Assembly: GCA_030950085.1 (NCBI GenBank)
Contig: JAUZRW010000072.1
Span: 1-54,318 of the forward strand
Direction: 5' to 3'
Source: Anaerolineae bacterium
GTDB taxonomy: Bacteria > Chloroflexota > Anaerolineae > Aggregatilineales > Phototrophicaceae
Length of the DNA stretch: 54,318 nt
Shown: positions 11,074 to 26,699 of the stretch, piece by piece
How the letters are laid out: each line of letters starts with the position of its first letter
Numbering within the stretch: the stretch's first letter is position 1
Notes under the pieces: generated by a model
The model's input: only the letters and a program-made list of their open reading frames with translations
The model's database searches: none
What the model was told of the DNA's origin: nothing
Made by a program: the position numbers and the translations under genes

Positions 11074-11080
11074 ACTTTTG

Positions 11081-11154
11081 CGCCCCCGGTAGGACTCGAA
11101 CCTACGGCCTAAGGATTAGAAGTCCTTCGCTCTCATCCACTGAGCTACGGAGGC
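11081..11154 (-). tRNA. tRNA-Arg (anticodon UCU)
   Basis: A complete 74-nt cloverleaf on the minus strand. The acceptor arm is GCCTCCG / CGGGGGC with one G-U pair. The D arm is GCTC...GAGC. The anticodon stem is AAGGA/TCCTT with loop CTTCTAA, giving anticodon TCT at 11118-11120. The variable loop is AGGCC, the T arm is GTAGG-TTCGAGT-CCTAC, and the discriminator base is G. The 3' CCA is not encoded. It reads AGA (and AGG by wobble) arginine codons. Confidence 0.95.
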
Positions 11155-11464: not shown

Positions 11465-14400
11465 ATGCCTCCCAAAGCAAAAAATTCAACTAATCAGCAA
11501 GGTTACGATGCAAAAAACATTCAGTCTCTTACCCCTCGCGAACATGTTCGTTTGCGTCCGGGTATGTATGTTGGTGGTACTGACAAACGAGCCTTGCATC
11601 ATCTGATTTATGAAGTGGTTGATAATTCGATTGATGAGGCGCTGGCTGGACGCTGTGACCATATTGAAATCATATTACATGATGATGGTTCTGTGTCAGT
11701 GGGCGATAATGGCGCAGGTATTCCTGTTGATATGCACGAAACAGGTAAGTCTGCCCTTGAAGTAGTCATGACCGAACTCATGACCGGTGGTAAGTTTGAT
11801 AACGATGCCTATACAAATAGTGGTGGTTTGCATGGTGTCGGTGTATCAGCTGTTAATATGCTTTCAGAAGAATTCATTTCAACGGTGTTTCGGGATGGTT
11901 ATGTATGGCGACAAGTCTACAATGAAGGGGTGCGAAGTACTGATGTCGAAAAATTGCGCCCGATGGAAGATGACGAACCCACAGGCACACTGCAACGATT
12001 CTTCCCAGATTTTACTGTCATGGACGAAAACGAATTTAGCTATAGTACACTAGCGCATCGCTTCAGAGAAATGGCATTTGTTACAGGTGGAATCACCCTG
12101 ACTCTGCGTGACGAACGTGTCAAACCGATTCCGGATGAAGTGACCTATTATTTTGATGGTGGTATTGCATCATTCGTCAAGTATCTTAACCGTAATCGTA
12201 AATCACTACATGATGTTATCTATGCCCAAAAGGATGTTGAATTTGAAGATAAGAAAGGCAATCCATACAGCGTTGGTGTAGAAATTGCTTTTCAATACAG
12301 TAATTCAGCTACCACGACTGAACTTCCTTTTACAAATACCATCAATACCCCTGATGGCGGTACGCATGTCACGGGCTTGCGTTCAGCGATTACGAGTATT
12401 TTGAATCGCTATGCCCGTAAAATCGGCGCATTGAAAGAGAAAGAGACGAATTTCAGTGGCAATGATACGTTAGAAGGTCTAACGGCGATTGTTAGTGTCA
12501 AACATCCTGACCCACAGTTTGAGAGCCAAACAAAGGTAAAATTGCTGAATCCCGAAGTGCAGGGGGCAGTGTCACAGGTGGTATCGGAGGCACTGCTAGA
12601 GTTCATGGAACTTAATACACGCGATGCACGCCGCATCATTGATAAGTGTATGACCAGCAAGCGAGCGCGTGAAGCGGCGAAAAAAGCCCGTGATTTGGTG
12701 CGTGGCGGACCCTCTCTGTTAGAAAGCAGCACCCTTCCGGGCAAATTGGCAGATTGCTCTCAACATGGCGAAAATGCCGAAATCTACATCGTCGAAGGCG
12801 ACTCTGCCGGTGGTTGCTTCTCTGGCGACACAAAAATTGCGCTTGCCGATGGACGTAATTTGACATTTGAAGAGCTAGTCAAAGAGCAAGAAGAAGGCAA
12901 AGAACACTTCATCTACACAATTCGCAATAACGGGACAGTTGGACTTGAACAGGCTCTTCATGCGCGAGTGACAAAGAAAAATGCACAAGTCATTCGCTTG
13001 ACTTTGGATAATGGCGAAACAATAACTTGTACTCCTGACCATCTATTTATGCTGCGCGATGGGTCTTATAAAGAAGCACACGGTTTAACATCTAATGATT
13101 CAATTATGCCACTCTACCGTAAATTATCGGATGTAACTGAATCAGGTATCACAATTGATGGTTATGAAATGACATGGGATCCGCGCTCCGATAGTTGGTT
13201 GTTTACACATGTCCTTGCTGATTGGTATAACCGTTGGATAGGGAACTATAAGGAATCTGCGGACGACCATCGTCATCATGTAGACTTTAATAAGTTGAAC
13301 AATAATCCAACAAATATTCAACGAATGCCAGCAGATGAACATCTGAAACTTCATCAGGAACATCTTTTACATACCCTTCATCGCCCTGATGTCATTGAAA
13401 AATGCCGCGAAATTCACCAAACTGATGAATATCGCGCAATGATGAGTGAAAGAATGCAGAGACCAGAGACTCGTGCTATCTTGTCTAAACAGGCGCGTAA
13501 GCAATGGGAAGATGAAGCATATAAATCATATATGGTAGAAAAATGGCGTAAATTCTATGAAAGTAATTCTGAATATCGCCAAATGAATCGTGAACGACTA
13601 AATGAGGCACAGATAGAGTATTGGAGTAAGGAAGAAAATCGCCAATTCCAAGCTGAAAGGGTACGTCAATTTTTTATAGACAATCCTGATGCTCGTAAAA
13701 CATTATCTGAACTTGCAAAAGAGCAATGGCAAGATGAGGAACTTTTGGAATGGAGACGCAAGAAAACAGCAGAGCAATGGATACCAGAGTTTAGAGAGAA
13801 GCGGCGTGCTACATTAAATCAAACTTACTATAACAAAACAATTTCGACATTAAAACAAATCGAAATTGAACAGGGTGAGCTCAATATTAACGCCTATCGA
13901 GAATTCCGTATCAAGTCGCGTGATAAATCATTACTGCGCTTTGACACCTTTTGTAACCGATATTTTGATAGCGATCAGAAACTCGCTCGCGAAGCCGTAA
14001 GTAATTACAATCATCGTATTGTAAAGGTGGAGTATCTGATTGAAGCAATGGATGTCTACGACATTGAAGTGCCGAATACACATAATTTTGCTCTAACAAG
14101 TGGTGTCTTTGTTCATAATAGTGCAAAACAAGGTCGTGACCGTCATTTTCAGGCGATTCTGCCCCTGCGCGGGAAGATTCTCAATACAGAACGTGCTCGA
14201 CTAGACAAAATTCTCGATAATAACGAAATTAAGTCGCTGATTTCAGCATTGGGAACGGGTATTCACGATGATTTCGATGTTAATAAATTACGCTATGATA
14301 GGGTAATAATTATGACTGACGCTGACGTTGATGGAAGTCATATCAGAACACTGCTATTAACATTCTTCTTTCGGCATATGCTCCCATTGATTCAAGAAGG

Positions 14401-14752
14401 GCATCTATATATTGCACAACCGCCGATTTATCTGCTCAAGCAAGGGAAAAATTTGCAATATATCTACCCACAAGCTGGCTTGAACGATGCGGAAATTCTG
14501 GTCAAGTCGCTCAAGAAGTACAAAAACCCTGACCGTGTGGGTGTGCAGCGTTATAAAGGTCTCGGCGAAATGAACCCTGACCAATTGTGGGAAACCACCA
14601 TGGATCCCGAACATCGGACACTGTTACAGGTGACAATCGAAGATGCAGGAGCGGCTGATAGCGTTTTTGATATGCTGATGGGTGCGAGTGTTCCACCCCG
14701 TAAACGCTTCATTCAGACTAATGCGAAGTTAGTCAAGAATCTTGATGTTTAA
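11465..14752 (+). CDS. gyrB: DNA gyrase subunit B precursor containing an intein
   Basis: ATPase subunit of DNA gyrase; with GyrA it introduces negative supercoils. The 1095-residue precursor becomes a 660-residue GyrB after removal of the intein at residues 451-885. The N-terminal GHKL ATPase has NSIDEAL (N54), DNGAGIPVDMH and GGLHGVGVSAVNMLS. A transducer domain follows. The TOPRIM domain begins at EGDSAGG (E444), is interrupted by the intein, and resumes at SAKQGRDRHFQAILPLRGKI. Its metal-binding acidic triad DADVD is at residues 952-956 of the precursor. The C-terminal block YKGLGEMNPDQLWETTMDPE is conserved. GAGGA (11454-11458) precedes the ATG. The gene has its own promoter and ends before two hairpins; gyrA is not in the window. 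Confidence 0.97.
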   Translation: MPPKAKNSTNQQGYDAKNIQSLTPREHVRLRPGMYVGGTDKRALHHLIYEVVDNSIDEALAGRCDHIEIILHDDGSVSVGDNGAGIPVDMHETGKSALEVVMTELMTGGKFDNDAYTNSGGLHGVGVSAVNMLSEEFISTVFRDGYVWRQVYNEGVRSTDVEKLRPMEDDEPTGTLQRFFPDFTVMDENEFSYSTLAHRFREMAFVTGGITLTLRDERVKPIPDEVTYYFDGGIASFVKYLNRNRKSLHDVIYAQKDVEFEDKKGNPYSVGVEIAFQYSNSATTTELPFTNTINTPDGGTHVTGLRSAITSILNRYARKIGALKEKETNFSGNDTLEGLTAIVSVKHPDPQFESQTKVKLLNPEVQGAVSQVVSEALLEFMELNTRDARRIIDKCMTSKRAREAAKKARDLVRGGPSLLESSTLPGKLADCSQHGENAEIYIVEGDSAGGCFSGDTKIALADGRNLTFEELVKEQEEGKEHFIYTIRNNGTVGLEQALHARVTKKNAQVIRLTLDNGETITCTPDHLFMLRDGSYKEAHGLTSNDSIMPLYRKLSDVTESGITIDGYEMTWDPRSDSWLFTHVLADWYNRWIGNYKESADDHRHHVDFNKLNNNPTNIQRMPADEHLKLHQEHLLHTLHRPDVIEKCREIHQTDEYRAMMSERMQRPETRAILSKQARKQWEDEAYKSYMVEKWRKFYESNSEYRQMNRERLNEAQIEYWSKEENRQFQAERVRQFFIDNPDARKTLSELAKEQWQDEELLEWRRKKTAEQWIPEFREKRRATLNQTYYNKTISTLKQIEIEQGELNINAYREFRIKSRDKSLLRFDTFCNRYFDSDQKLAREAVSNYNHRIVKVEYLIEAMDVYDIEVPNTHNFALTSGVFVHNSAKQGRDRHFQAILPLRGKILNTERARLDKILDNNEIKSLISALGTGIHDDFDVNKLRYDRVIIMTDADVDGSHIRTLLLTFFFRHMLPLIQEGHLYIAQPPIYLLKQGKNLQYIYPQAGLNDAEILVKSLKKYKNPDRVGVQRYKGLGEMNPDQLWETTMDPEHRTLLQVTIEDAGAADSVFDMLMGASVPPRKRFIQTNAKLVKNLDV
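12815..14119 (+). mobile_element. GyrB intein with HNH-type homing endonuclease domain
   Basis: In-frame 435-residue insertion between the two glycines of EGDSAGG and SAKQGRD. It begins with Cys451 (CFSGDTKIALADG, block A). It has block B with ITCTPDHLFML near residues 519-529 and block F (DVYDIEVPNTHNFAL), and ends with block G GVFVHN, Asn885, followed by Ser886 as the +1 nucleophile. All splicing residues are present, so it should splice. The middle holds an HNH-like centre (DDHRHHVDFNKLNNNPTNI, near residues 598-617) and then repeated basic helical units rich in W, K and R (about 635-800) that look like DNA-binding NUMOD-type repeats. The same insertion point and similar size are known for the Synechocystis GyrB intein, so this is an established intein allele that spreads horizontally. 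Confidence 0.95.
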
Positions 14753-14894: not shown

Positions 14895-15716
14895 TCAGAA
14901 TTCAATTTCAGCAATCTGGTCAATGTCGATTTCAAAGTCGGCTAAATCAACATCATCAGTGTCCATAGTATCCCAATCCACTAATGAACCAGCTTGTGTA
15001 CCTCTGTCGCATAATGAGCGATACGTACAGAAGCGACAACGGGGCATATCTTCGGTTAATGGAAAATCAGGTCGTGAGTCAATTTCATCTACGAGATGCA
15101 GTAAATTAGCTTCATGTGTAGCGAATTGCTCTTTATCATAAGTAAAACTTAAGGTTGCCCCGTCATGCTCTGCATACCAATAACGCATCTCGATTTGTTC
15201 GGGTTCAATGGTTTGACCCTTATTGAGATGACTACCACCTTTTGCTAGGACATAGCGATAAACAATCGTTTGCAATTTCTTCGCTAACCATTCTCGACGG
15301 GGTATTTTGCGTGATGTTTTCCAGTCGATAATGATGGCTTTATCCCCGATTGCTACCACGTCAAATTTTGCCAATAAAGCATATTTGCCTAGTGGAATAG
15401 TCAATGTTCGTTCAGGAAAACGGGTTTTAGGCATATCTGTCAAGCCGTTTTTGAGGTACGTCTCGAACCACTGTCTGACACTCTCATCACTAATATGCTT
15501 TGTGAGTGTGTCGGCAGGAATACCTAACAAGTGCTGATGTACCAATTGATGAAAACGCTGTCCTTGTTCCATGCGTTTTTCAAACTCTAGCATCTCATCG
15601 ACTTCTGCTGCTGGCCAACGCTGCCGTTGCAAGTATTTCAACTGAAAACGACGCGGACAATCGACGTAATCTTGCAAACTCGACGGGCTGAATACAAAAT
15701 CTTCTGGCAGATTCAT
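14895..15716 (-). CDS. RecB-family PD-(D/E)XK exonuclease with a four-cysteine Fe-S site
   Basis: Stand-alone nuclease of 273 aa related to the C-terminal nuclease domains of AddB/RecB and to Cas4. In order: SPSSLQDYVDCPRRFQLKYL with Cys20; the motif I region GQRFHQLVHQH; KFDVVAIGDKAIIIDWKTS, containing the two aspartates and the lysine of the catalytic centre; the downstream Q...Y motif (LQTIVYRYVLAKG); and CRFCTYRSLC with Cys227, Cys230 and Cys236. Cys20 plus this trio is the pattern of the AddB-type 4Fe-4S staple. The acidic C-terminal tail (DTDDVDLADFEIDID) might contact partners. It is the last gene of an operon with two SF1 helicase-like genes, and all catalytic residues appear intact. 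Probable role: end resection for recombination, or defence against foreign DNA. Confidence 0.85.
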   Translation of the reverse strand: MNLPEDFVFSPSSLQDYVDCPRRFQLKYLQRQRWPAAEVDEMLEFEKRMEQGQRFHQLVHQHLLGIPADTLTKHISDESVRQWFETYLKNGLTDMPKTRFPERTLTIPLGKYALLAKFDVVAIGDKAIIIDWKTSRKIPRREWLAKKLQTIVYRYVLAKGGSHLNKGQTIEPEQIEMRYWYAEHDGATLSFTYDKEQFATHEANLLHLVDEIDSRPDFPLTEDMPRCRFCTYRSLCDRGTQAGSLVDWDTMDTDDVDLADFEIDIDQIAEIEF

Positions 15717-15753
15717 GATTTTTACCTGATACGCAACTAAAAATTGATAAGTT

Positions 15754-15791
15754 CCCCTCCTTAATGCTTTGGGGAGGGGCTAGGGGTGGGG
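15754..15791. repeat. Dispersed GC-rich palindromic repeat at a gene junction
   Basis: CCCCTCC (15754-15760) and GGAGGGG (15773-15779) form a hairpin, followed by CTAGGGGTGGGG (15780-15791). This looks like the short intergenic repeats common in Chloroflexota and cyanobacteria. It spans the end of the helicase gene: the final residues HPHP and the TAG stop of that gene are encoded by the repeat. Confidence 0.6.
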
Positions 15792-17999
15792 ATGTTCTTT
15801 TTGCCACCAACCCCGTAGCGCCGCAATCGGTTTTGCTTCTACTTGTTCACCTCTACGTCCACTATTCCATGTGATGATGAGTTCACGCTTTGCCCTCGTA
15901 ATCCCCACATAGAGCAATCGTAGACGTTCAGACGCATATTCGATACGGGCTTGTTGTGTCGCTTGACCTTCACTATAAGGCTTTTCGGTATACAGTGAAT
16001 CGAGTTGTGCGAGAGCCTCCGCTTCCAGATTAAGACTATCCCGAATGAACCAGCGTTCGCCAATAAAATTATCGAAAGGGTCAGCCGACGGGTAATCGTA
16101 ATTATTCGCAGACATCAAATAGACTCTATCCCATTCTAAGCCCTTTGCCTTGTGCATCGTTGTGACTGTCACCTTGCCTTTATGTTGCTCAGGGTCGAAG
16201 GCATCATCTTCATCACTAACCCCTGTGAACTTGCGTTGTCCGCGTGCGATAGCTTGCAACTCTTCGCTATATTCTGGCAATTGTGCTTCGGGGTGCAGTT
16301 CAGCAAAACGGCGTAAATAGAGGGCGACACTATACGCTGTGGCGATTTCAGTATCGAGTTGGAATAAATCCGCACTGATAGTCAGCATGAGTTGGTCAAT
16401 TGGCAAGTCAGCCGCCTCTTGCCAGCGCCTTACCAGTGTACGAAATTCAGCAAGGTGCGTATACAGTTCTCCACTATCGCCAGCTTTTTCTTCTAGCCAA
16501 TCATGCAAGCGCGGATAGATATAATCTTCTACTTGGGTTAATTTGCGAATCTCTTTTGCAATATTTTCGATACTGCGCTCTGCTTCTTCATCGCCGCGCT
16601 CATCTCGTCGCCATACACGATATGCTGTAGCAAGAGCCGCACTATCTTTGGGGTCTTTGAGGGTGTCTAGCACATATAACAAAGCCCCGACAACAGCACG
16701 AGTTCCACTGGTAGAGCGCAGATTTTCGACATACGGTAAATTCATACGCCGTAATTCTTGTACCATTTTTGCGCCACTGCTATTAATCGGCAGCAAGACC
16801 GCGCACGTTTTATCAGGATTATCGGACAACCAACGTTGCAGTGACTTAATTATCGTGTCGCGCTCTTCTTGTGCCGTGAACTTCTCTGGGCGCAGATGAA
16901 CCATTGCTGGATTATCTGGTGGATTGCCTTGAGGGTCATCTTTTGGAGTGGGTTCAATCCATGGCAGCGACAAAGGTTGTTTTTCCCGAATTTCAGGATT
17001 CGGGTGGGCAAGTGACCATGTGATGAGTTGATTCGCCAGATTAATGATACTCGCTGTACTACGTCCACTATTGGGCAGCGTTTTCGCTTGAACATCTTTC
17101 TCTTGCATAAAATCGAGTAAATACTTGGGATTGGCTGTCGTGAAGGTTTCATAAATCGCTTGGTTAGGGTCGCCAACACGTACCCAATTGCCTTTTTCGC
17201 CTGCTAATAACTTGAGAATATCTTCTTGTAATTTGCTACTATCTTGTGCCTCATCTTCCAGAATATAAGTCCAGCGATGTTGTAATCGTGCTAGATAATG
17301 TGGGTCTAGGCGTAAAACCCGTAATGCGAGTCGAATCAAGTCCTGAAAATCGACTGCTCCCCGATAGCGTAAGGCGCGTTCATACTGCTCATAAATTTCA
17401 GCACACATTTCCGCAAGTGGCAGAGACCGTTTCGAGTCTAATACCATGTTTTGCAATTCACCGGCAGGCAGTTGCATATCTTTTGCTTGGCGGATGAAGT
17501 TTGTTGTCATATTCTTGACGGTATCTGCCCAGCGCGTGCTACGGGTGAAGTGGTCGCTATAATGTTCATTAGAGAGATAATGATCAGGTGCATTGGGATT
17601 GGCGCGTACCCATGATTCAACCGCCTCTTGAATAATGTTGTCAGCCGCCCGTTCGTCTAGCACGGTGAAACTATCATCTAAACCCACCAACCCCGGACGT
17701 TCGCGCACAATATCATTAGCGAGACCATGCAATGTCCGCACACGATAGCCCAATCCCGGTAGAAGATTGAATTCTTCTTTTAGAAAATTTGCCATTGACT
17801 TTGCAAAATTGCCAACTGCCGATTTTACCAATGTCACAATGAGAATTTCTTGCTCATCGTCTAGTGGAACAGTTGCGACGAGTTTTGCTGCAAGATAAGA
17901 CAATGTTGCTGTTTTGCCACTACCCGGCACAGCCGAAACGCCCATTTTGCCACCTGTATATTCGAGAACCTCTGCTTGCTTGGGACGCGGCTTAAACAT
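15780..17999 (-). CDS. UvrD/PcrA-type SF1A DNA helicase (AddA-like motor)
   Basis: ATP-dependent 3'-5' DNA helicase of 739 aa with all SF1A motifs. Q-motif and Walker A are RPKQAEVL...VPGSGKTATL (residues about 5-35). Motif II is DEAQD, motif III is GDPNQAIYETF, motif V is TTMHKAKGLEWDRVYL and motif VI is LLYVGITRAKRELIITW. It ends without the nuclease domain found in AddA. The start ATG has a near-perfect ribosome site (AGGAGG) that lies inside the end of the upstream gene, with which it overlaps by 8 nt. The neighbours suggest it is the working motor of a split AddAB/AdnAB-like complex. The last four residues come from a repeat element. Confidence 0.9.
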   Translation of the reverse strand: MFKPRPKQAEVLEYTGGKMGVSAVPGSGKTATLSYLAAKLVATVPLDDEQEILIVTLVKSAVGNFAKSMANFLKEEFNLLPGLGYRVRTLHGLANDIVRERPGLVGLDDSFTVLDERAADNIIQEAVESWVRANPNAPDHYLSNEHYSDHFTRSTRWADTVKNMTTNFIRQAKDMQLPAGELQNMVLDSKRSLPLAEMCAEIYEQYERALRYRGAVDFQDLIRLALRVLRLDPHYLARLQHRWTYILEDEAQDSSKLQEDILKLLAGEKGNWVRVGDPNQAIYETFTTANPKYLLDFMQEKDVQAKTLPNSGRSTASIINLANQLITWSLAHPNPEIREKQPLSLPWIEPTPKDDPQGNPPDNPAMVHLRPEKFTAQEERDTIIKSLQRWLSDNPDKTCAVLLPINSSGAKMVQELRRMNLPYVENLRSTSGTRAVVGALLYVLDTLKDPKDSAALATAYRVWRRDERGDEEAERSIENIAKEIRKLTQVEDYIYPRLHDWLEEKAGDSGELYTHLAEFRTLVRRWQEAADLPIDQLMLTISADLFQLDTEIATAYSVALYLRRFAELHPEAQLPEYSEELQAIARGQRKFTGVSDEDDAFDPEQHKGKVTVTTMHKAKGLEWDRVYLMSANNYDYPSADPFDNFIGERWFIRDSLNLEAEALAQLDSLYTEKPYSEGQATQQARIEYASERLRLLYVGITRAKRELIITWNSGRRGEQVEAKPIAALRGWWQKEHPHP

Positions 18000-20136
18000 G
18001 CTCCTCCTCCCGACGTAAGCGCCGTAACATACTATGCACAGCCATTAAGAGAGTGCCGCGTTGCTCATAACCTTGTTCACCAAATTCACTAAAACCGAGA
18101 TACACTTTTTTACGACAGCGACGAATGAGTCCTAGCGCAAGGTTGGCGAGGGTTTCTTGATTAACAGCGACTTCATCGGCATCTTCCCATCTGCGCCCTT
18201 CTGTCCATTGCCGACTGAGAACGTAAGGGTGGGTAAGTGGTTGATTGACCCGTTGCGCCCATCCTGAACTTCCGACATTGAGCCAAAATTGATATTCGAC
18301 AGGTTGATTGCTCAGTAGAAAAGTATAAGCTGGAGCAATCAGGACAGAATCGCGTTTTTCCAGTTGCCAATCTCGGATATAGAGATTCGCTATCACGCCC
18401 TTATCAACCATTGCCACATATTCTGGCGATGTATCAAGGTGCGGTTCAATCTTATTCACGGTTTGCCGAAATCGACGCGCCGAGTCGATGAGATTAGCGG
18501 CAGTGTTGGCAGCTTCATAGCGGTCATGGAAGCCAAAACTCGGTTGTGACAAAATCTCCCCGAATAGTTTGCTGAAAAAGGCATCTAATGGCAGAGGTTC
18601 ATCTTGAATATAGGCATCTACCCATTGCCGTAACTGTTCATAGCGATTGCCCAAGTCAAAAGTGATGCGTTCTTGAACTTTTTCGTTGCTAATTTGTTCA
18701 AAGGGATGCAGTTGCCGATTGCGATACACAATATCGACTAATAATCGCGCCCGTACCAAATCGAATTGGGCGATAGAAGCAGTCAGGGCATAGGCGATGT
18801 CGTATTTGCTGGCAGGTATATTCCATTGCGGATGAGCGATTTTTGCTAATGTGAGCAATGTTCGTGCGGCAGGTTCTTCTCGCAAAGCACGCGATGGACG
18901 ATGTGAACGATTCGGCACACTATGTTCATTGAGGCGTGTTTGGAGGGCGAAACGCAGGGCATCGGGTAGATAGGGTGCGAGAACGACGATTTCTGCTGGA
19001 TTCACCCCTTCACTGTGGACAAGCGATGCAATATTCTCAGCCGCCCAATCTATCATTTGCGGATGATAGCGATTATCAGCATAGACAATCGCCTCGCGTG
19101 CATCGGAATTTTTGGGTGATTTTGGAGCAGGTTGATTGAGGCTGCGTGCCATCTCGCTTTGAAATGCCTGTATATCTGACGACATAACGCGATGTTTCGT
19201 CAATTTGATATGTGTCTGGCAAAGTTTTTTAAGTTGATAAGCATCTACGGGGTCAGCACCGAGAAAACGCCGATAGCCACTTTCACTATCATAAATCAGC
19301 AAAGCCGATTCGCAGTGTGGCAACCAGTCGCGCAGAATATCATGGGTAGCAGGGGTATCTTCTTCGATATTATCCACAATAAGGTGCTTATATTGCTGCA
19401 TCAGATAACGACGTGGTTGTTCTAGTTTCCACAAAAATTCGACAAACAAGGTAACTTGCAACGAAAAATCCAGCATATTATTTCTGACACACATCTCGCG
19501 GAAGAGATTCGCCGATATTTGGGCATCATCATAAATATAACCCTGTTCAACATCGCCACGCCATGCAGATTTGAGACGTTCGGCAATTGTTTGAGGGTCG
19601 AATCTGACCAGTGCGGCTTTGTTGAGATTATCGACAATTTGCGTATAGAGGCGGCTGCGGCTAATCGTGACACTGTTGAAATAATCGTGCGCCTCTATTT
19701 CGGGTTCGACAAAGCGCGTCATGTAATATTGCACCAGTTCCAAACTGAGGAAATGCGGACGGTCTAGCGGATTCTCGAAGCCAATGTCATCGGCAATCAG
19801 TGGGAAAAATAAATCGACCATTTGATAGGCGAGACTGCCGATTGTTGCTGTATGAATATCGCCGCCCGTAGCGACACGCGAACGGCGCAATGCCTCGCGG
19901 TAGGGGATGGCAAGCGCGGCTTGTGGCACGAGAACCAGAATCGAATCAGTCGCCACACCGCTTCGTATCAATTGCTTGACACGCTCAATAGCAGCCGTCG
20001 TTTTACCTGTGCCAGCGATACCCTCTAAGAAAATCGTCGTATCAAAATGTTCTTTGGCGACTCGTTGTTGGTCTTTCAGCAAGCGCATGAGATTTCCAGA
20101 GTCCTTACCCGATAATGTGCTAAATTCAATACGCAC
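17992..20136 (-). CDS. Degenerate SF1 helicase-like protein (AddB-like)
   Basis: 714-aa P-loop protein of the UvrD/AddB type. Walker A (EGIAGTGKTTAAIERV, residues about 38-53) is good. Motif II reads LIVDNIEED instead of DExxD, and motif V (VLIAPAYTFLLSNQPVEYQFWL) and motif VI (LIRRCRKKVYLGFSEF) are recognisable but altered, so strand unwinding activity is doubtful. AddB of Bacillus shows a comparable loss of helicase motifs while keeping a role in Chi recognition. AddB's own C-terminal Fe-S nuclease is missing here and may be supplied by the separate nuclease gene of the same operon. The start is GTG at 20134-20136, with only a weak ribosome site; the ATG 16 codons further in is an alternative. 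It is first in the operon. Confidence 0.7.
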   Translation of the reverse strand: MRIEFSTLSGKDSGNLMRLLKDQQRVAKEHFDTTIFLEGIAGTGKTTAAIERVKQLIRSGVATDSILVLVPQAALAIPYREALRRSRVATGGDIHTATIGSLAYQMVDLFFPLIADDIGFENPLDRPHFLSLELVQYYMTRFVEPEIEAHDYFNSVTISRSRLYTQIVDNLNKAALVRFDPQTIAERLKSAWRGDVEQGYIYDDAQISANLFREMCVRNNMLDFSLQVTLFVEFLWKLEQPRRYLMQQYKHLIVDNIEEDTPATHDILRDWLPHCESALLIYDSESGYRRFLGADPVDAYQLKKLCQTHIKLTKHRVMSSDIQAFQSEMARSLNQPAPKSPKNSDAREAIVYADNRYHPQMIDWAAENIASLVHSEGVNPAEIVVLAPYLPDALRFALQTRLNEHSVPNRSHRPSRALREEPAARTLLTLAKIAHPQWNIPASKYDIAYALTASIAQFDLVRARLLVDIVYRNRQLHPFEQISNEKVQERITFDLGNRYEQLRQWVDAYIQDEPLPLDAFFSKLFGEILSQPSFGFHDRYEAANTAANLIDSARRFRQTVNKIEPHLDTSPEYVAMVDKGVIANLYIRDWQLEKRDSVLIAPAYTFLLSNQPVEYQFWLNVGSSGWAQRVNQPLTHPYVLSRQWTEGRRWEDADEVAVNQETLANLALGLIRRCRKKVYLGFSEFGEQGYEQRGTLLMAVHSMLRRLRREEEHV

Positions 20137-20188: not shown

Positions 20189-20240
20189 CCAAAACCCCTC
20201 GATTTGGGAGAAACTAGCCGACTTTGAAATCGAATTGACT

Positions 20241-20292
20241 AAAATATTGCTATCTTTAGGCTGTAGATTTTTAGAGTGCATTGCAATATTTT
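20241..20292 (+). promoter_or_regulatory. Candidate operator region of the RM controller gene
   Basis: A perfect 10-bp inverted repeat AAAATATTGC (20241-20250) / GCAATATTTT (20283-20292) brackets the 40 nt before the controller gene. Inside it, TGCTATCTTTAGG (20248-20260) is identical to a sequence upstream of the methyltransferase gene (22368-22380, minus strand). C-box operators of type II RM systems occupy such positions. Confidence 0.5.
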
Positions 20293-20300
20293 CACTTTCT

Positions 20301-20561
20301 ATGAAAAACAAGGAAAATGATATTACTACAATCTTTGGTCTTACAGTTCGTGAGTTGCGTGTGGAGGCTGGATATTCACAGGAAGACTTTGCACATATTT
20401 GCAAATTACATCGTACCTACATTGGCGCTATTGAGCGTGGTGAGAAAAATGTGACAATTGTGACAGCTAAAAAAATTGCCGTTGCGTTCGGAATATCTTT
20501 ATCTTCTTTATTGCTAAATGTAGAAAAAAAGATAAGCAATACAGGTGCCACAAATGATTAG
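20301..20561 (+). CDS. Restriction-modification controller protein (C protein), XRE-type HTH
   Basis: Small DNA-binding protein of 86 aa, consisting almost entirely of a lambda-repressor-type HTH (LTVRELRVEAGYSQEDFAHICKLHRTYIGAIERGEKNVTIVTAKKIAVAFGISLSSLL). The size, the family and the position directly before an endonuclease gene are those of C proteins. C proteins delay endonuclease expression until the host is methylated. ATG 20301 is chosen because it gives the normal C-protein length; no ribosome site precedes it, which fits the leaderless transcripts known for several C genes. An in-frame upstream start (20235) would add 22 residues of unlikely sequence. The gene overlaps the endonuclease gene by 8 nt. 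Confidence 0.85.
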   Translation: MKNKENDITTIFGLTVRELRVEAGYSQEDFAHICKLHRTYIGAIERGEKNVTIVTAKKIAVAFGISLSSLLLNVEKKISNTGATND

Positions 20562-21381
20562 TGAGCAACTGTATTTTCAATTCCGAACTCATTATGTAGA
20601 GAATCTTGATGATATCATTGAAGTTGAAAAGAAATATATGCAATTTCTTCAGAAGGCAATATCGTCTGTAGCCCAAAACATTGCAGATGATTTCAATATT
20701 ACAATGGAATTATTCCCTTTTTGGAAGAATTACCCTCCTCTACAGCGCGGTAGAGCGCCAAGAGGCACGTCCATTCCGTGGCTTGAAGTGGGCGAGACGG
20801 TTATAGGTTCTCATGTAATCAGAGCTATCAGTCGTGTAAATCCTAAAATACGACATCCGGGGCTGCCTTCTGGCTCAGATATACGCTTTTTAACGAATGA
20901 TATACTGGCTCATCTTGATATTAAGATTTCAGGCCCCAATGATAGAGCGGATGAAGTTGTTCCTAGCCCTAATCAATTGTCGGGTGCTGGCGAGTCATGG
21001 GAAAATGCCGGAATTATAAATCAAGAAGTTGTAATTACTGGTGCTAGATCAACAATGACTTTCCAACCTGAATTACCACCTTTGTACATTGTCAATGACG
21101 TGCCAGTCTTATGTGGGGCATATTTTTTGAAAGGTGTCTATGTTGTTGAAGGTCAAGGTAAACAGCCATTAGATTATCTGGAATTGATATGTGTCCCAAA
21201 TGGTTTATTATCCTTTGTGGGCCCCAATTATAATCAGAACGTAACTGGACTTTTCATTCCCGGCAAGGATGAAAAAACAAAACGAAAGAAACGCTGTCGT
21301 GTCAGAATGGAACCGCTTGCTAAAATAGCTGATTGGAGGCGTGAGAGAATTTGGCAGAGAAAACCTCCATTGGATGATTAG
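20554..21381 (+). CDS. Type II restriction endonuclease, BglI family
   Basis: 275-aa endonuclease that strongly resembles BglI (recognition GCCNNNNNGGC). Shared blocks are FWKNYPPLQRG, IPWLEVGE, GLPSGSDIRFL, LDIKISGPNDR, SPNQLSGAG, PPLYIVND and VPNGLLSF. The PD-(D/E)XK centre is Asp109, Asp122 and Lys124, matching BglI Asp116, Asp142 and Lys144. BglI is about 299 aa, so this version is slightly shorter. The start is ATG 20554, with AGG 8 nt upstream; an upstream GTG (20545) is less likely. It overlaps the controller gene by 8 nt, so it is coupled to it, and it overlaps the convergent methyltransferase gene by 4 nt. Cleavage of GCCNNNNNGGC is the prediction by homology. Confidence 0.9.
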   Translation: MISEQLYFQFRTHYVENLDDIIEVEKKYMQFLQKAISSVAQNIADDFNITMELFPFWKNYPPLQRGRAPRGTSIPWLEVGETVIGSHVIRAISRVNPKIRHPGLPSGSDIRFLTNDILAHLDIKISGPNDRADEVVPSPNQLSGAGESWENAGIINQEVVITGARSTMTFQPELPPLYIVNDVPVLCGAYFLKGVYVVEGQGKQPLDYLELICVPNGLLSFVGPNYNQNVTGLFIPGKDEKTKRKKRCRVRMEPLAKIADWRRERIWQRKPPLDD

Positions 21382-22337
21382 ATGTCTAGTTTTATTTGTT
21401 TATATGTATTATCCATTGTTTGCCTTGTTTTAGTACAATTTTCTTTTGCTAACTCTACATACTTTGCTTCTTTTTCAATACCAATATATTGCCTATTTTC
21501 CATGATTGCTGCTACGGCTGTCGTACCACTTCCAACAAAACAATCGAGAACTATATCATTGGGTGCTGTTAATAATTTAATGATGCGACGAGGTAATTCA
21601 AGTGGGAATTTGGCCTCATGATCGTTATTTGCACGAACTGATGGAATATTCCAAACACCTCTTGAACCCCACTCAGCCCATTCGTTGCGTTTCAACCTTT
21701 TACGGTCTACCACTGTGATACCCGGTTTCCAGAAAACAAAGATGTATTCAAATTCATCTATAGAACGATATGATATGGTATGCCACTGAGAACTTTGCCA
21801 TGCAGGATCTTTGACCCAAATACGGCGGTCATATAAATAGAGTCCGGCATCTTTGCCGGCTTTTTCTATTATGCCACTAACGAGATGGACTCGTGTTTGG
21901 GTGTTGTATTTACCACCCCGTATATTGTTACCGTTTAGCCGTCGGTCAATTGTTTGCTCACTACAATCTAGTAATTCGGCAAGCTGATAACGATTATATG
22001 TGGGGTGTAACTCCATTGCACGAAGAACATCTTCTCTTGTTACGCTTATGCGTTGTCGGCTGATGTTAAGTGCTTGGATACGCGGCATGTTTTTATCTGG
22101 AAAAACTAAAATATCCGCAATGTTTATTGCGAGGAATCCGCCGGGGATTAATATCGGCGTGTGTAAGTTGATGACAGTTGTAATCAATTCTTGCCATTCT
22201 TCGTAAGTCATATCTTTTTCATATTCTTTGCCTAAATGATATGGAGGAGACCATATGCTACAGGCAATTGAATCATTTTCGATGGATTTTAATAATGTTC
22301 TAGCATCACCATGGTGTATTTCATTTACTTGTAACAA
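21378..22337 (-). CDS. DNA methyltransferase, beta-class N4-cytosine type (cognate to the BglI-like enzyme)
   Basis: 319-aa SAM-dependent methyltransferase protecting the host from the adjacent endonuclease. Motif IV is SPPY at residues 30-33, typical of N4-cytosine/N6-adenine enzymes; SPPY favours N4-cytosine, as in M.BglI. The SAM-binding motif I is at the C-terminal end (VLDCFVGSGTTAVAA, about 263-277), giving the beta-class order. Between them, residues about 100-135 contain an HTH-like unit (YQLAELLDCSEQTIDRRLNG) that may be the target-recognition or an autoregulatory element. The start is TTG (22335-22337), supported by AGGAGA (22345-22350). The gene is convergent with the endonuclease and has its own upstream operator-like element. 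Confidence 0.9.
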   Translation of the reverse strand: MLQVNEIHHGDARTLLKSIENDSIACSIWSPPYHLGKEYEKDMTYEEWQELITTVINLHTPILIPGGFLAINIADILVFPDKNMPRIQALNISRQRISVTREDVLRAMELHPTYNRYQLAELLDCSEQTIDRRLNGNNIRGGKYNTQTRVHLVSGIIEKAGKDAGLYLYDRRIWVKDPAWQSSQWHTISYRSIDEFEYIFVFWKPGITVVDRKRLKRNEWAEWGSRGVWNIPSVRANNDHEAKFPLELPRRIIKLLTAPNDIVLDCFVGSGTTAVAAIMENRQYIGIEKEAKYVELAKENCTKTRQTMDNTYKQIKLDI

Positions 22338-22514: not shown

Positions 22515-24773
22515 ATGAAAAAATGGCTTGAACCGAAACAGGTAACAGTAGACGAAGCGTTGTGGGCGGCTGTTGGGGGGCATCCGGTGCTGGCGCAAAG
22601 TCTGGTGCGGCGCGGTATTACATCGCCTGATGCGGCACGTCGTTTTTTGGATTCGGCGGCGTATGTTGCGGCGGCTTCTGATGATTTGCCAGATATGGAT
22701 ATCGCTGTCTCGCGTTTGCAGCGTGCAATTCGAGATAATGAACAGATTCTCGTTTGGGGTGATTTCGATGTGGATGGGCAAACGTCTACGGCATTGCTGG
22801 TTTCAGGCTTGCGAGATTTGGGCGCGAAAGTGGTTTATCATGTTCCGAATCGCTTCACCGAAGGGCATGGGATTCACGTCCCGACACTGAAAAAATGGCT
22901 TGATGGCGGAATCAATTTATTGCTGACATGCGATACAGGTATTACAGCGCATGAGGCGATTGACTATGCACAAGGGCGCGGTGTTGATGTCGTAATTACT
23001 GACCATCATGCCTTGCCAGAAACGTTTCCCAACGCGACTGCGACTGTCAATCCGATGCGCTTGCCAGATGGTCATCCTCTGTGTGAATTGCCCGGAGTCG
23101 GGACAGCCTATAAAGTGATGCAAGCCCTTTATGGCGCAAAATCATCTGACCATCTGCTGGATTTGGTCGCAATGGGCATTGTCGCCGATGTCATGGTGCA
23201 AGTCGATGACACGCGCTATCTGCTACAAAAAGGCTTGGATGTACTACGCAACAATCCGCGTTCCGGTATCAAAGCGATGATGGCACGCGCTGACATTGAC
23301 CCCACCTATTTCAACGAGATGGATATTGGCTTCTCGCTTGCGCCGCGCCTCAATGCACTGGGACGATTAGCCGATGCGAATCCGGCGGTTGAATTGCTCA
23401 CGACGGATGATATTGCGATTATTACAGAGCGTGTCAATGAACTAGAAGGCTTGAATCAAAAGCGAAAATTTCTCACTCGGCAAGTTTATGCAGCCGCACA
23501 ACAGAAAATCAAAGCCGATGAATCGCTATTGAAATACGCGGCACTGGTTATTTCTGGCGAGGGTTGGCATACAGGCGTAGTCGGTATTGTGGCGAGTCGG
23601 CTAGTCGAAGATTATGGCTGTCCGGTGATTGTGCTATCGGATAATGAAGGTTTGGCGAATGGGTCGGCACGTTCGGTCAAAGGCGCGAATATCATGGAAG
23701 CGATTCGTTCTCAGGCACATTTGCTCAAAAATTATGGCGGTCACAATATGGCGGCGGGCATGAGTCTCGCCTCTGATAATATTTTCGAGTTACGGCGCGG
23801 CTTGTCTCAGGTGGTTCGTGAGATGCTCGGAAAAACTGATGTTCAGCCCGAAATCCAACTGGAGGCTTTCATTGACTTAGCCGATATCAACCTCGATTTT
23901 GCACAAGATATCGGACGACTCGCGCCGTTTGGCAATGGTAATCCGCCACTCACACTGGCAACGAAAAATGTACAAGTTAAATCACGGCGCACGATGGGCA
24001 GTCGTGGCGACCATCTCAGCTTAAAAATTGCAGACGAATCTGGCACTGAACAGCGCGTCGTCTGGTGGTTTGGCGATATTGATGAAATCCCACAGGGGCG
24101 CTTCGATATTGCGTATACTGTGCGCCCGAATTTCTTCAATGGCAAGCATGAAGCACTGGTCGAATGGCTAGATGCGCGTCCCGTTGCAGGAGAAACCTTT
24201 GAGATATCGACACAAGCTACTTATGAAATTGTCGATTATCGCCAGCACATCGCCCCACAAGAAAAACTAAAACAGGTCATTGCTGATTATCCTGATGCCC
24301 TTATCTGGTCAGAGGGCGATACTGTCGGGATAGACCGTTATAATTTGCATGGGGCAGAAACGCTCGTTGTCTGGACAGTGCCATCGGATATTATGACATG
24401 GAAAGCCGCACTTGCCACTGTTCAACCGCAGCGACTGATTTTGTTTGCGAATATGCCAAAATTCAAAACCGCGAAAGACCTCATTACGCATATCATCGGT
24501 ATGTCGAAATTCGCGCATAGAGAAAAACAGGGTTTCATCTATTTGAGCGAAATTGTACGCCTCACTGCACAATCTGAGCAGACAATTATTTTGTGCCTCA
24601 AGTGGATTACTGCGGAAACTAATATGGTGATTCGCTTTGTTGCAGATGATAGTTATCAAGTTGAAATGGACACTGAATCCACACAAGGCAAGAATCCCTA
24701 TAGCAAAATGCTACAAATGCGCTTTGCCGAATCTCAAGCCTATCGCAAGCACTGGCTGAATCAGGCATTCTAA
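22515..24773 (+). CDS. recJ: Single-stranded-DNA-specific 5'-3' exonuclease RecJ
   Basis: 752-aa DHH-family exonuclease acting in recombination, base-excision and mismatch repair. Metal-binding motifs are DFDVDGQTSTALL (Asp83, Asp85, Asp87), TCDTGI, VVITDHHALPE (the DHH triad), and the LPGVGTAYKVMQAL block. The DHHA1 domain carries the GEGWHTGVVGIVASRLVE and GGHNMAAGMSL motifs, and an OB fold follows (SRRTMGSRGDHLSLKIAD). The C-terminal 170 residues are an extra region seen in some longer RecJ proteins. The ribosome site is weak (AAAAG). It reads away from the RM system and ends convergently with selB. Confidence 0.95.
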   Translation: MKKWLEPKQVTVDEALWAAVGGHPVLAQSLVRRGITSPDAARRFLDSAAYVAAASDDLPDMDIAVSRLQRAIRDNEQILVWGDFDVDGQTSTALLVSGLRDLGAKVVYHVPNRFTEGHGIHVPTLKKWLDGGINLLLTCDTGITAHEAIDYAQGRGVDVVITDHHALPETFPNATATVNPMRLPDGHPLCELPGVGTAYKVMQALYGAKSSDHLLDLVAMGIVADVMVQVDDTRYLLQKGLDVLRNNPRSGIKAMMARADIDPTYFNEMDIGFSLAPRLNALGRLADANPAVELLTTDDIAIITERVNELEGLNQKRKFLTRQVYAAAQQKIKADESLLKYAALVISGEGWHTGVVGIVASRLVEDYGCPVIVLSDNEGLANGSARSVKGANIMEAIRSQAHLLKNYGGHNMAAGMSLASDNIFELRRGLSQVVREMLGKTDVQPEIQLEAFIDLADINLDFAQDIGRLAPFGNGNPPLTLATKNVQVKSRRTMGSRGDHLSLKIADESGTEQRVVWWFGDIDEIPQGRFDIAYTVRPNFFNGKHEALVEWLDARPVAGETFEISTQATYEIVDYRQHIAPQEKLKQVIADYPDALIWSEGDTVGIDRYNLHGAETLVVWTVPSDIMTWKAALATVQPQRLILFANMPKFKTAKDLITHIIGMSKFAHREKQGFIYLSEIVRLTAQSEQTIILCLKWITAETNMVIRFVADDSYQVEMDTESTQGKNPYSKMLQMRFAESQAYRKHWLNQAF

Positions 24774-24827: not shown

Positions 24828-26699
24828 TTAAGGGGCGTTTCTGCCGCGTACTCGTTCATCATCCACGCGCTTTGTGATACCTTTTGCATCTAAATGTTCC
24901 AGCAAACCAATCGCATATTTTCGTGAAGAACCAAATTTGTCACGCACGCCCTTCACATCAACTGTGCCGTTATTATCAATCATCGCAAGTACCCCGATAA
25001 CCATGTCATCATAGGCTTTGCGGCTAAAGATGATTTCAGACTGAACCAAGACAATCTCACCCAAATCAATCAGGGCATATAAGACATCCTCGCCTGTGAT
25101 TTGACTCGCATCCGTAAATGAGGGTGGGGTATAAGGTTCTTTCGACATTGCTTGTAACAGTGTTTCAATAGTCGTTTGCTGTTTTGGCGAAAATGCAATT
25201 TCATGTTCTCGCATTTTCACGAGATTATGAAGCGCTTCAAAACGTTGTTCACTATCGAGCAGCATTGTTAGGAAAGCATTTTTGACACCGAGTCGACTCC
25301 GCAACTCTTCACGCGGAATACCCAATCGAAGCGGTATTTTTTGGTGATAATCTTGCAAAATGGACTCGATTTGGGCTAAATAGGCTTGATAACGGCTGGT
25401 TGCGAGATACGTATTATCTGGCAAATGAATCAGTCGATTTTGTGCGATAGCTTCTTCCAATGCTGCATGTAGTTCACTATCGGTATAACCTGTCACTTTT
25501 TGAATATTTGGGCGTTTGACAGGCGAATCATTATCGGCAACCTGCGTAACACGCTCGGCTGGGCTGCCTTCTAGCCGTGTTTGCAAATCATCAATGACAG
25601 TCGCTTGAAAGCGTTTCCAGCGTTTTTCAGGATGGGCATTAACGATGAGTCCGCCGCCGATGGTTTGTGGTGGGGATGGGTAGCGCAAGATAAAGCGGTC
25701 TCGATTTGTCAGGGGAATCGCATCACGTAAGCGTAATTGTAGCCAACCGCTTTCATCAGGTAAAAGTTGTTCCGCATTGAGTAAGCGTACATTGGCAATG
25801 GTTTCTGACGCGCCAGAGAAAAATTTCACTTCGGCATTGTGCTTCAACGGGCGGTCAGCATCAGCAAGGTGTCGAAAATGTACATCAATCAGTCGTGTTG
25901 GGCTGAGTTGCCCCGGAAAAGCTAAAACTTGTCCGCGCTCAATTTTATTTTTGTCAATGCCACTGACATTCACGGCAACACGGCTACCGGGTAGGGCGAC
26001 TTCAACATCTTGTTTGTAGCTCTGCAAACCACGAACTCGTCCTAGATGACTGCTTGGCTGTATTTCAACAGTATCACCAATAGCGAGAGTCCCACCGGAA
26101 AGTGTGCCTGTGACCACTGTGCCAAAGCCATCAATGGTGAAAACACGGTCAATGGGTAAGCGCGGTTGATTGTAATCTGTGCGTGGTGGCAAATCGCTTA
26201 ATAAGTCTGTGAGGGTGTTGATGAGATTATCTATACCTTGTCCGCTATGCGCTGAAATCGGCAAAATTGGGGCTTCTGCCAGTATGGTATTGGAGACAGC
26301 TTCCTGTACTTCCAACTCAACCAAATCAAGCCATTCCTCATCGTCAATCAAGTCAATTTTGCTCAGAACGATGATTCCGGTTTGGATGCCGAGTAAGTCT
26401 AAAATAGCCAAATGCTCGCGGGTTTGGGGCATAATGCCTTCATCTGCCGCAATGACCAATACCGCCGCATCAATGCCGCCGACACCTGCCAGCATATTCT
26501 CGATAAAATCACGATGACCGGGAACATCAACAATGCCTAATGTTTCGCCATCAGGCAGCGTGAGCCATGCAAAACCCAAATCAATCGTGAGACCACGCGC
26601 TTTCTCTTCTCGCAGACGGTCAGGGTCGATGCCTGTTAAACGCTGAACCAATGTCGATTTCCCATGGTCAACATGCCCCGCAGTGCCAATTACACGCAT
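24828..26699 (-). CDS. selB: Selenocysteine-specific elongation factor SelB
   Basis: 623-aa GTPase that delivers Sec-tRNA to UGA codons marked by a SECIS hairpin. The N-terminal G domain has GHVDHGKST (8-16), DVPGHRDF and SKIDL; beta-barrel domains II and III follow (RVFTIDGFGTVVTGTLSGG and later). The C-terminal third is made of winged-helix repeats for SECIS binding, the last being VKGVRDKFGSSRKYAIGLLEHLD. Length and architecture match full SelB. It starts 6 nt after the stop of the coiled-coil gene with no clear ribosome site, so it depends on translational coupling. selA, selD and tRNA-Sec are not in the window. No obvious selenoprotein gene is seen either. Confidence 0.95.
   Translation of the reverse strand: MRVIGTAGHVDHGKSTLVQRLTGIDPDRLREEKARGLTIDLGFAWLTLPDGETLGIVDVPGHRDFIENMLAGVGGIDAAVLVIAADEGIMPQTREHLAILDLLGIQTGIIVLSKIDLIDDEEWLDLVELEVQEAVSNTILAEAPILPISAHSGQGIDNLINTLTDLLSDLPPRTDYNQPRLPIDRVFTIDGFGTVVTGTLSGGTLAIGDTVEIQPSSHLGRVRGLQSYKQDVEVALPGSRVAVNVSGIDKNKIERGQVLAFPGQLSPTRLIDVHFRHLADADRPLKHNAEVKFFSGASETIANVRLLNAEQLLPDESGWLQLRLRDAIPLTNRDRFILRYPSPPQTIGGGLIVNAHPEKRWKRFQATVIDDLQTRLEGSPAERVTQVADNDSPVKRPNIQKVTGYTDSELHAALEEAIAQNRLIHLPDNTYLATSRYQAYLAQIESILQDYHQKIPLRLGIPREELRSRLGVKNAFLTMLLDSEQRFEALHNLVKMREHEIAFSPKQQTTIETLLQAMSKEPYTPPSFTDASQITGEDVLYALIDLGEIVLVQSEIIFSRKAYDDMVIGVLAMIDNNGTVDVKGVRDKFGSSRKYAIGLLEHLDAKGITKRVDDERVRGRNAP

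Follow-up and report, generated by a model that had tools for sequence, protein, structure and literature searches.

This study concerns a 54,318-nucleotide stretch of DNA (contig JAUZRW010000072.1 of assembly GCA_030950085.1, from an Anaerolineae bacterium of the phylum Chloroflexota), which is referred to throughout as the window. Its minus strand carries a head-to-tail row of three genes, called here SF1, HEL and NUC (Table 1), in which HEL and SF1 overlap by 8 bp and HEL and NUC are separated by 63 bp. With moderate confidence, the three products, normally together with RecJ, are proposed to form a double-strand-end resection machine that works like AddAB and is assembled from separate proteins. 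Judged from its sequences, the set probably shares the working plan of AddAB, with one motor, one ATP-binding pseudo-helicase and one iron–sulphur (Fe-S) nuclease. The observed basis of this proposal is gene content, motifs, predicted folds, co-occurrence, gene order and tail conservation; from it we infer complex formation, polarity, strand choice, RecA loading, ATP binding by SF1 and the partner of the NUC tail. A first-pass annotation, made from the letters of the window alone, had described one operon for an SF1 protein with a good Walker A and a degraded motif II (VDNIEED), a fully intact UvrD-type helicase without a nuclease domain, and a separate four-cysteine nuclease. This description is borne out by the results below.

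SF1 is probably an ATP-binding pseudo-helicase, as far as its motifs indicate. Its single Pfam match above the cut-off is a weak one to UvrD-helicase (4.2e-10). Motifs were compared in an alignment of 140 SF1, 92 HEL and 71 NUC proteins from fetched loci together with the window's own, which may count the window sequences twice. The Walker A motif (GIAGTGKT) is intact, and its Lys45 is kept in 136 of the 141 aligned rows. The motif-II Asp is also D in 136/141 rows. The next residue, which occupies the position of the catalytic Glu of active helicases, is N in 129/141 and E in 0/141, and the motif-III Gln is gone as well. The loss of the motif-II Glu is fixed across the relatives. The AlphaFold2 model of SF1 (mean predicted local distance difference test score, pLDDT, 88.7) has a UvrD-type fold and matches solved UvrD with Z 30.2 (462 residues, 3.4 Å), AdnB with Z 26.3 (621 residues, 4.0 Å), AddA with Z 22.4 (631 residues, 4.7 Å) and AddB with Z 22.1 (600 residues, 6.0 Å). 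The long, tight match of the model to AdnB is in keeping with, but does not prove, a placement of SF1 like that of a resection-complex subunit.

HEL has the properties expected of the motor. Pfam identifies UvrD-helicase (3.9e-44) and UvrD_C (6.5e-25) and no nuclease domain, and of the 93 rows covering motifs I, II, III, V and VI, nearly all retain them. Its AlphaFold2 model (pLDDT 87.9) likewise has a UvrD-type fold and matches PcrA with Z 32.6 (557 residues, 10.7 Å), AdnB with Z 26.8 (618 residues, 6.0 Å) and AddA with Z 23.9 (640 residues, 6.6 Å). In seven f9 genomes (G172=L207, G392=L210, G088, G115, G140, G180 and G432), the HEL match falls into two pieces within one frame, covering about positions 1-275 and 270-745 of the profile; this pattern may reflect a short insertion immediately ahead of motif III.

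NUC is matched by PDDEXK_1 (1.2e-26), while its Cas_Cas4 match lies barely above the curated cut-off, and among solved structures its profile comes closest to the AdnB nuclease (2e-5). The catalytic PD-(D/E)XK set is complete, with E102, D119, K133 and Q149 present in 72/72 rows and D131 in 70/72. The four Cys, which are of the Fe-S type known from AddB and Cas4, are conserved to a similar degree (Cys 20, 227 and 230 in 72/72 rows, Cys 236 in 71/72). In four genomes of one family (G037, G044, G050 and G055), a second four-Cys PD-(D/E)XK nuclease gene, NUC2, stands directly before SF1 (L058:6673-7668, L052:6957-7979, L067:8528-9541 and L037:2051-3076), and its Cys and DWKTG residues are invariant across all four. 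RecJ was not found after NUC in either of the two NUC2-family loci with enough downstream DNA (L052 and L058).

The end of NUC is an acidic tail preceded by a variable linker. The C-terminal residue is Phe in 55 of 71 proteins and Tyr in 10 of 71; by comparison, 4.9% of the 1734 frames longer than 200 amino acids in the same loci end in Phe, a background that includes NUC itself and any spurious frames. Mean identity is 49% over the last 10 residues, 14% over the preceding 18 (ungapped), 25% over the linker as aligned and 45% over the core. The ending LDFDQIAEIEF is found in 13/71 proteins and AEIPF in two (L166 and L188), and a NUC protein from Salinibacter ends in DLDDVEEIEF. In some proteins (L050, L074, L078, L183, L209 and L216), the tail is absent or different. 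RecJ binds the single-stranded DNA-binding protein (SSB). According to PMC7913777, the SSB of E. coli ends in MDFDDDIPF, and PMC7145534 states that the SSB tip recruits repair proteins, including RecO and PriA. From this likeness, we infer that the NUC tail may mimic SSB docking, most simply onto RecO or RecJ.

Gene order was assessed in 117 distinct loci, which were chosen because they hold SF1; 80 of them represent the best of 402 relatives in the genome collection, and these best 80 are titled as Chloroflexota metagenome-assembled genomes except for two labelled Acidobacteria. HEL follows SF1 directly in 71 of the 88 loci with enough DNA, and NUC follows HEL directly in 60 of 65. RecJ lies on the same strand, no more than 3.5 kb after NUC, in 45 of the 60 contiguous SF1-HEL-NUC loci, and the spacing is within 110 bp or overlapping in 26 of these 45 and 0.5 to 2.5 kb in the other 19. 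It is the commonest gene cluster outside the trio (50/117 SF1 loci; the next family reaches 20). The conservation of gene order across Chloroflexota, which had been put forward as a check at first pass, is thus found, with strong SF1 matches confined to one class. The three-polypeptide set proposed then also stands as a trio; its limit to three does not, given the frequency of recJ and the presence of NUC2 in one family.

The same arrangement occurs in another phylum. Plasmid pSR56 of Salinibacter ruber M8 carries the row SF1-HEL-NUC-RecJ, each protein being 39-44% identical to its window counterpart, and the plasmid RecJ is up to 45% identical to RecJ of the class. It can be argued from this four-gene row that one functional block has moved between phyla. 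The plasmid search matched 30 records, of which, among the matches listed, two cover more than 80% of the query, namely those of Salinibacter, which is clearly a relative, and Ilyobacter. Plasmid pILYOP01 of Ilyobacter polytropus (L235) encodes a UvrD-like protein that is 19% identical to SF1 over 92% of its length, and neither HEL nor NUC is annotated beside it. No SF1 relatives were found in 50,697 phage records, and a scan of viral contigs returned 66 pattern matches without an SF1 relative. The recurrent neighbours that could be identified are RecJ, ParA, a ParB_N protein, a primase-polymerase, an enolase-superfamily protein and a UPF0029 protein. Upstream of SF1, 13 loci (L131, L133, L134, L139, L142, L144, L148, L153-L155, L157, L163 and L170) carry genes for ParA and a ParB_N-type protein, and 11 of them a primase-polymerase gene too; this is possibly the trace of a former mobile replicon.

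The distribution of the genes was examined in 61 genomes, comprising the window's own and 60 relatives. SF1 is present in 43/61, HEL in 44/61 and NUC in 42/61; the last count is 42 and not 43 because the match in G050, being NUC2, was dropped. Fisher p values, with relatedness ignored and dispersed genes included, are 1e-9 for SF1/HEL and 1e-6 for SF1/NUC. The presence of SF1 in 43/61 genomes, taken with the kept gene order, means that the trio is not a product of chance. In a 400-genome sample of the phylum, strong SF1 matches (E <1e-80) are confined to the class, and the matches listed from other classes are local and weak, the strongest at 1.3e-14, and many fall in frames of roughly 1000 amino acids or longer. 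Within the class, SF1 (E <1e-80) and HEL (E up to 1e-60) occur in an identical 43 of 54 genomes. That SF1 and HEL share the same genomes even when dispersed, in combination with the fixed inactivity of SF1, points to physical dependence.

The first-pass annotation had also named a canonical AddAB or RecBCD in the same genome as evidence that would overturn its reading. Such evidence lies on contig C118, which encodes an AddB of 1103 amino acids and the N-terminal part, about the first third, of AddA, up to the contig end; looking for helicase domains in the assembly did not recover the remainder of AddA. Several relatives have full-length AddA frames beside AddB. AddB was detected in 41/61 genomes, and the 20 without it include 16 with the full trio and 19 with one or more of its genes. 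The idea that the row is the sole AddAB-like kit is favoured by those 16 relatives and fails for the window's own genome. Among the 43 SF1-bearing genomes of the class, where AddB was defined as an open frame of more than 1000 amino acids with a full PF12705 match, an AddB-sized frame is present in 7 (8 with the otherwise uncounted 958-amino-acid frame of G357) and absent from 36 (35). A rule of one or the other per genome is satisfied in 60/61 genomes if any one trio gene is accepted (G057, 82% complete, is the exception), and it fails in 8/54 class genomes.

In the proposed machine, HEL would be the one active motor, which loads at the end, moves 3' to 5' on one strand and unwinds the duplex. 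SF1 would act as a scaffold that splits or guides the strands, and it may sense ATP and read DNA sequence or state, the latter being what the inactive helicase folds of AddB and RecC do. NUC would cut the displaced 5'-ended strand, and RecJ would digest this strand further, 5' to 3', to give a 3' single strand for RecA. The NUC tail, as a copy of the acidic SSB tip, would dock on a tip reader (RecO, RecJ or PriA), and RecA would be loaded via RecFOR and not via a built-in loader.

Several observations weigh against this proposal. The window's genome itself has AddB, and AddB is found with all three genes in 21/61 genomes, so the set does not simply replace AddAB; pure replacement was rejected on this count and because SF1 and AddB are not significantly exclusive across the 61 genomes (p 0.13). 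Neither SF1 nor AddB is present in 8/54 class genomes, so the set is dispensable. RecJ is a common housekeeping gene, it is out of line with the trio in the window, it is out of range in 15/60 contiguous loci, and in 19/45 it lies at the larger distances given above. HEL does not follow SF1 in 17/88 loci, and the genes are dispersed in part of the class (e.g., in G172, G106 and G042). Finally, the folds of SF1 and HEL score higher Z values against plain UvrD/PcrA than against AdnB, and therefore the fold singles out no end-resection role.

Each of the known systems resembles the row in part. AddAB has one motor and two nucleases, and the helicase fold of AddB is inactive, according to PMC4824097. 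AddAB of the Bacillus type shares with the row a superfamily 1A motor, an inactive helicase fold with Walker A and an Fe-S PD-(D/E)XK nuclease, but the nuclease of the trio is unfused, HEL has no nuclease of its own, recJ belongs to the row, and descent of HEL and SF1 from AddA and AddB is not indicated. HEL reaches 100.3 bits against addA_Gpos (cut-off 707.65) and lacks the fused C-terminal nuclease of the AddA type. SF1 reaches 11.2 bits against addB_Gpos (cut-off 903.7); it has the inactive helicase fold keeping Walker A that marks AddB and lacks the fused Fe-S nuclease. The AddAB-like division of labour was foreseen in the one-nuclease, one-active-motor set of the first-pass annotation, although a single active motor, which was presented there as distinctive, is already the rule for AddAB (PMC4824097).

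The row is linked to the mycobacterial AdnAB by the profile match of NUC to the AdnB nuclease and perhaps by the fold match of SF1 to AdnB, although for SF1 and HEL alike the AdnB match (Z about 26) scores below that to UvrD/PcrA. AdnA and AdnB each fuse a motor and a nuclease, whereas motor and nuclease are unfused in the trio. RecBCD resembles the row in having one nuclease with a superfamily 1 motor and an inactive helicase-fold partner; unlike HEL, RecB has a fused nuclease, and the row has no RecD-type second motor. HEL scores 86.5 bits against NCBIfam recB (cut-off 696.05). Pfam gave no RecD match in the 11 window proteins examined, the genome not having been searched for RecC or RecD. 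With Cas4, NUC shares a four-Cys PD-(D/E)XK family (profile match 1e-7), but its TIGR00372 score of 36.5 bits is below the Cas4 cut-off of 65, and no cas genes were found among the window proteins scanned. Another Cas4-sized protein is encoded on contig C62 of the window's genome beside a Cas1-like frame (Cas1 judged by eye). The nearest published relative found is an operon of unfused UvrD and Cas4-like genes, mostly of Clostridiales, which section 8 of PMC5704561 suggests to serve DNA repair. By that description, helicase and nuclease are separate genes of one operon as in the row, but no inactive SF1 partner and no recJ are named for it in that section. In the literature searched, judged from listings and passages and with preprints and most subscription papers outside it, no description of this row was found.

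The reading of the first-pass annotation, that an AddAB/AdnAB machine has been split in three, is not upheld by phylogeny. Two unrooted trees were built from 26 and 37 chosen rows, in which AddA and RecB had been trimmed to 900 residues and AddB to 760. A single branch sets apart each of the groups AddA with RecB, UvrD with Rep, HEL, SF1 and AddB, with good support for all groups except UvrD in the smaller tree. HEL falls outside the AddA/RecB group, and the larger tree places AddA with UvrD and not with HEL (94/94, below the starred level). By profile, HEL is nearer UvrD (5.7e-51) than AddA (4.6e-36), and SF1 is about equally far from UvrD (6.7e-12), AddB (5.9e-11) and HEL (9.7e-11), with AddA at 1.9e-5. 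Thus, a genuine AddAB broken into three genes, with HEL from AddA and SF1 and NUC from AddB, is disfavoured by the tree and profile scores, less firmly for SF1, and appears improbable. SF1 and AddB do share a Walker A without the motif-II Glu, the trees favour no particular deep order of SF1, AddB and HEL, and NUC is nearer the AddB nuclease (2.6e-8) than that of AddA (6.2e-5); on the other side, NUC is about as near Cas4 (1.0e-7) and nearer NUC2 (1.6e-11), and SF1 stands no closer to AddB than to UvrD. The simplest reading of these comparisons would be that similar parts were assembled separately. SF1 and AddB may have an old common origin, and HEL may share with AddA/RecB an ancestor older than that group.

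Two further explanations were weighed. HEL, NUC and RecJ might serve RecF-type gap or excision pathways singly, as members of a shared operon that form no complex, with SF1 as a regulator. RecJ belongs to gap repair (PMC1193525), the genes are dispersed in some lineages, and HEL is nearer UvrD than AddA, all of which would fit; this explanation is made unlikely by the exact match between the genomes with SF1 and those with HEL, scattered genes included, and by the fixed inactivity of SF1. The row might instead be an anti-phage or anti-plasmid defence system, in which a helicase and a nuclease degrade invading DNA like Gabija or the UvrD-Cas4-like fusions. The best PADLOC hit of HEL is the GajB model (1e-43), as expected of any UvrD protein because of the shared fold. 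The plasmid location in Salinibacter and the restriction-modification system that adjoins the row in the window also favour defence, and UvrD-Cas4-like fusions are tied to defence loci in section 8 of PMC5704561. Nevertheless, PADLOC matched no GajA model to the trio, and Pfam showed nothing GajA-like in 8 further proteins of the window; the row occurs widely in the class genomes (43/54), the identified recurrent neighbours are not known defence genes, although many neighbours are unidentified, and the searches of phage records and viral contigs yielded no SF1 relative. A defence role is accordingly considered rather unlikely.

Taken as an AddAB-like resection machine, the row could represent a further, non-orthologous end-resection class beside RecBCD, AddAB and AdnAB, with four separate subunits, an SSB-mimicking tail that ties it to RecFOR and a mobile four-gene block; this possibility is put forward tentatively. 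On present sequences, the row would be a variant among helicase-nuclease resection machines, and its rank as a class of its own hinges on the complex being real. How break repair starts in bacteria without RecBCD or AddAB is an old question, and PMC1193525 includes a section on recombination without known presynaptic proteins. For many members of one Chloroflexota class, the row is a concrete candidate answer, and in many relatives it is the sole such kit found. Because the motor, the scaffold and the nuclease are separable, they could be recombined freely in vitro, something that the fused AddAB rules out. If true, the SSB-like tail on the nuclease would provide a simple hand-over of resected DNA to RecO.

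Table 1. Genes and features of the row and its surroundings, in window positions.
Feature	Position	Strand	Description
SF1	17992-20136	minus	714 amino acids, GTG start; UvrD-fold, probable pseudo-helicase; Pfam, alignment, AlphaFold2
HEL	15780-17999	minus	739 amino acids; intact superfamily 1A UvrD-type helicase; Pfam, alignment, AlphaFold2
NUC	14895-15716	minus	273 amino acids; stand-alone PD-(D/E)XK nuclease, four-Cys (Fe-S type) signature
NUC C-terminal acidic tail	14898-14930	minus	last 11 residues IDIDQIAEIEF, SSB-tail-like
RecJ	22515-24773	plus	752 amino acids; DHH, DHHA1, RecJ_OB; far side of SF1, divergent
HTH_3 regulator	20235-20561	plus	starts the restriction-modification insert; outside the machine
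BglI-type restriction endonuclease	20545-21381	plus	Endonuc_BglI 1e-80; insert, outside the machine
N6/N4 DNA methyltransferase	21378-22337	minus	N6_N4_Mtase 1.2e-40; insert, outside the machine

The trio and recJ are separated in the window by a BglI-type restriction-modification system (20235-22337), which consists of a helix-turn-helix regulator, an endonuclease and a methyltransferase. It is plausible that a rearrangement linked to this insert displaced the window recJ. Other features of the surroundings include a gene for DNA gyrase subunit B at 11465-14752, whose product of 1095 amino acids contains an intein (PF14890), and a gene for the elongation factor SelB at 24828-26699, which hints at selenocysteine use. 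A tRNA-Arg (tct) gene lies on the minus strand at 11080-11154, beneath a spurious frame of 111 amino acids.

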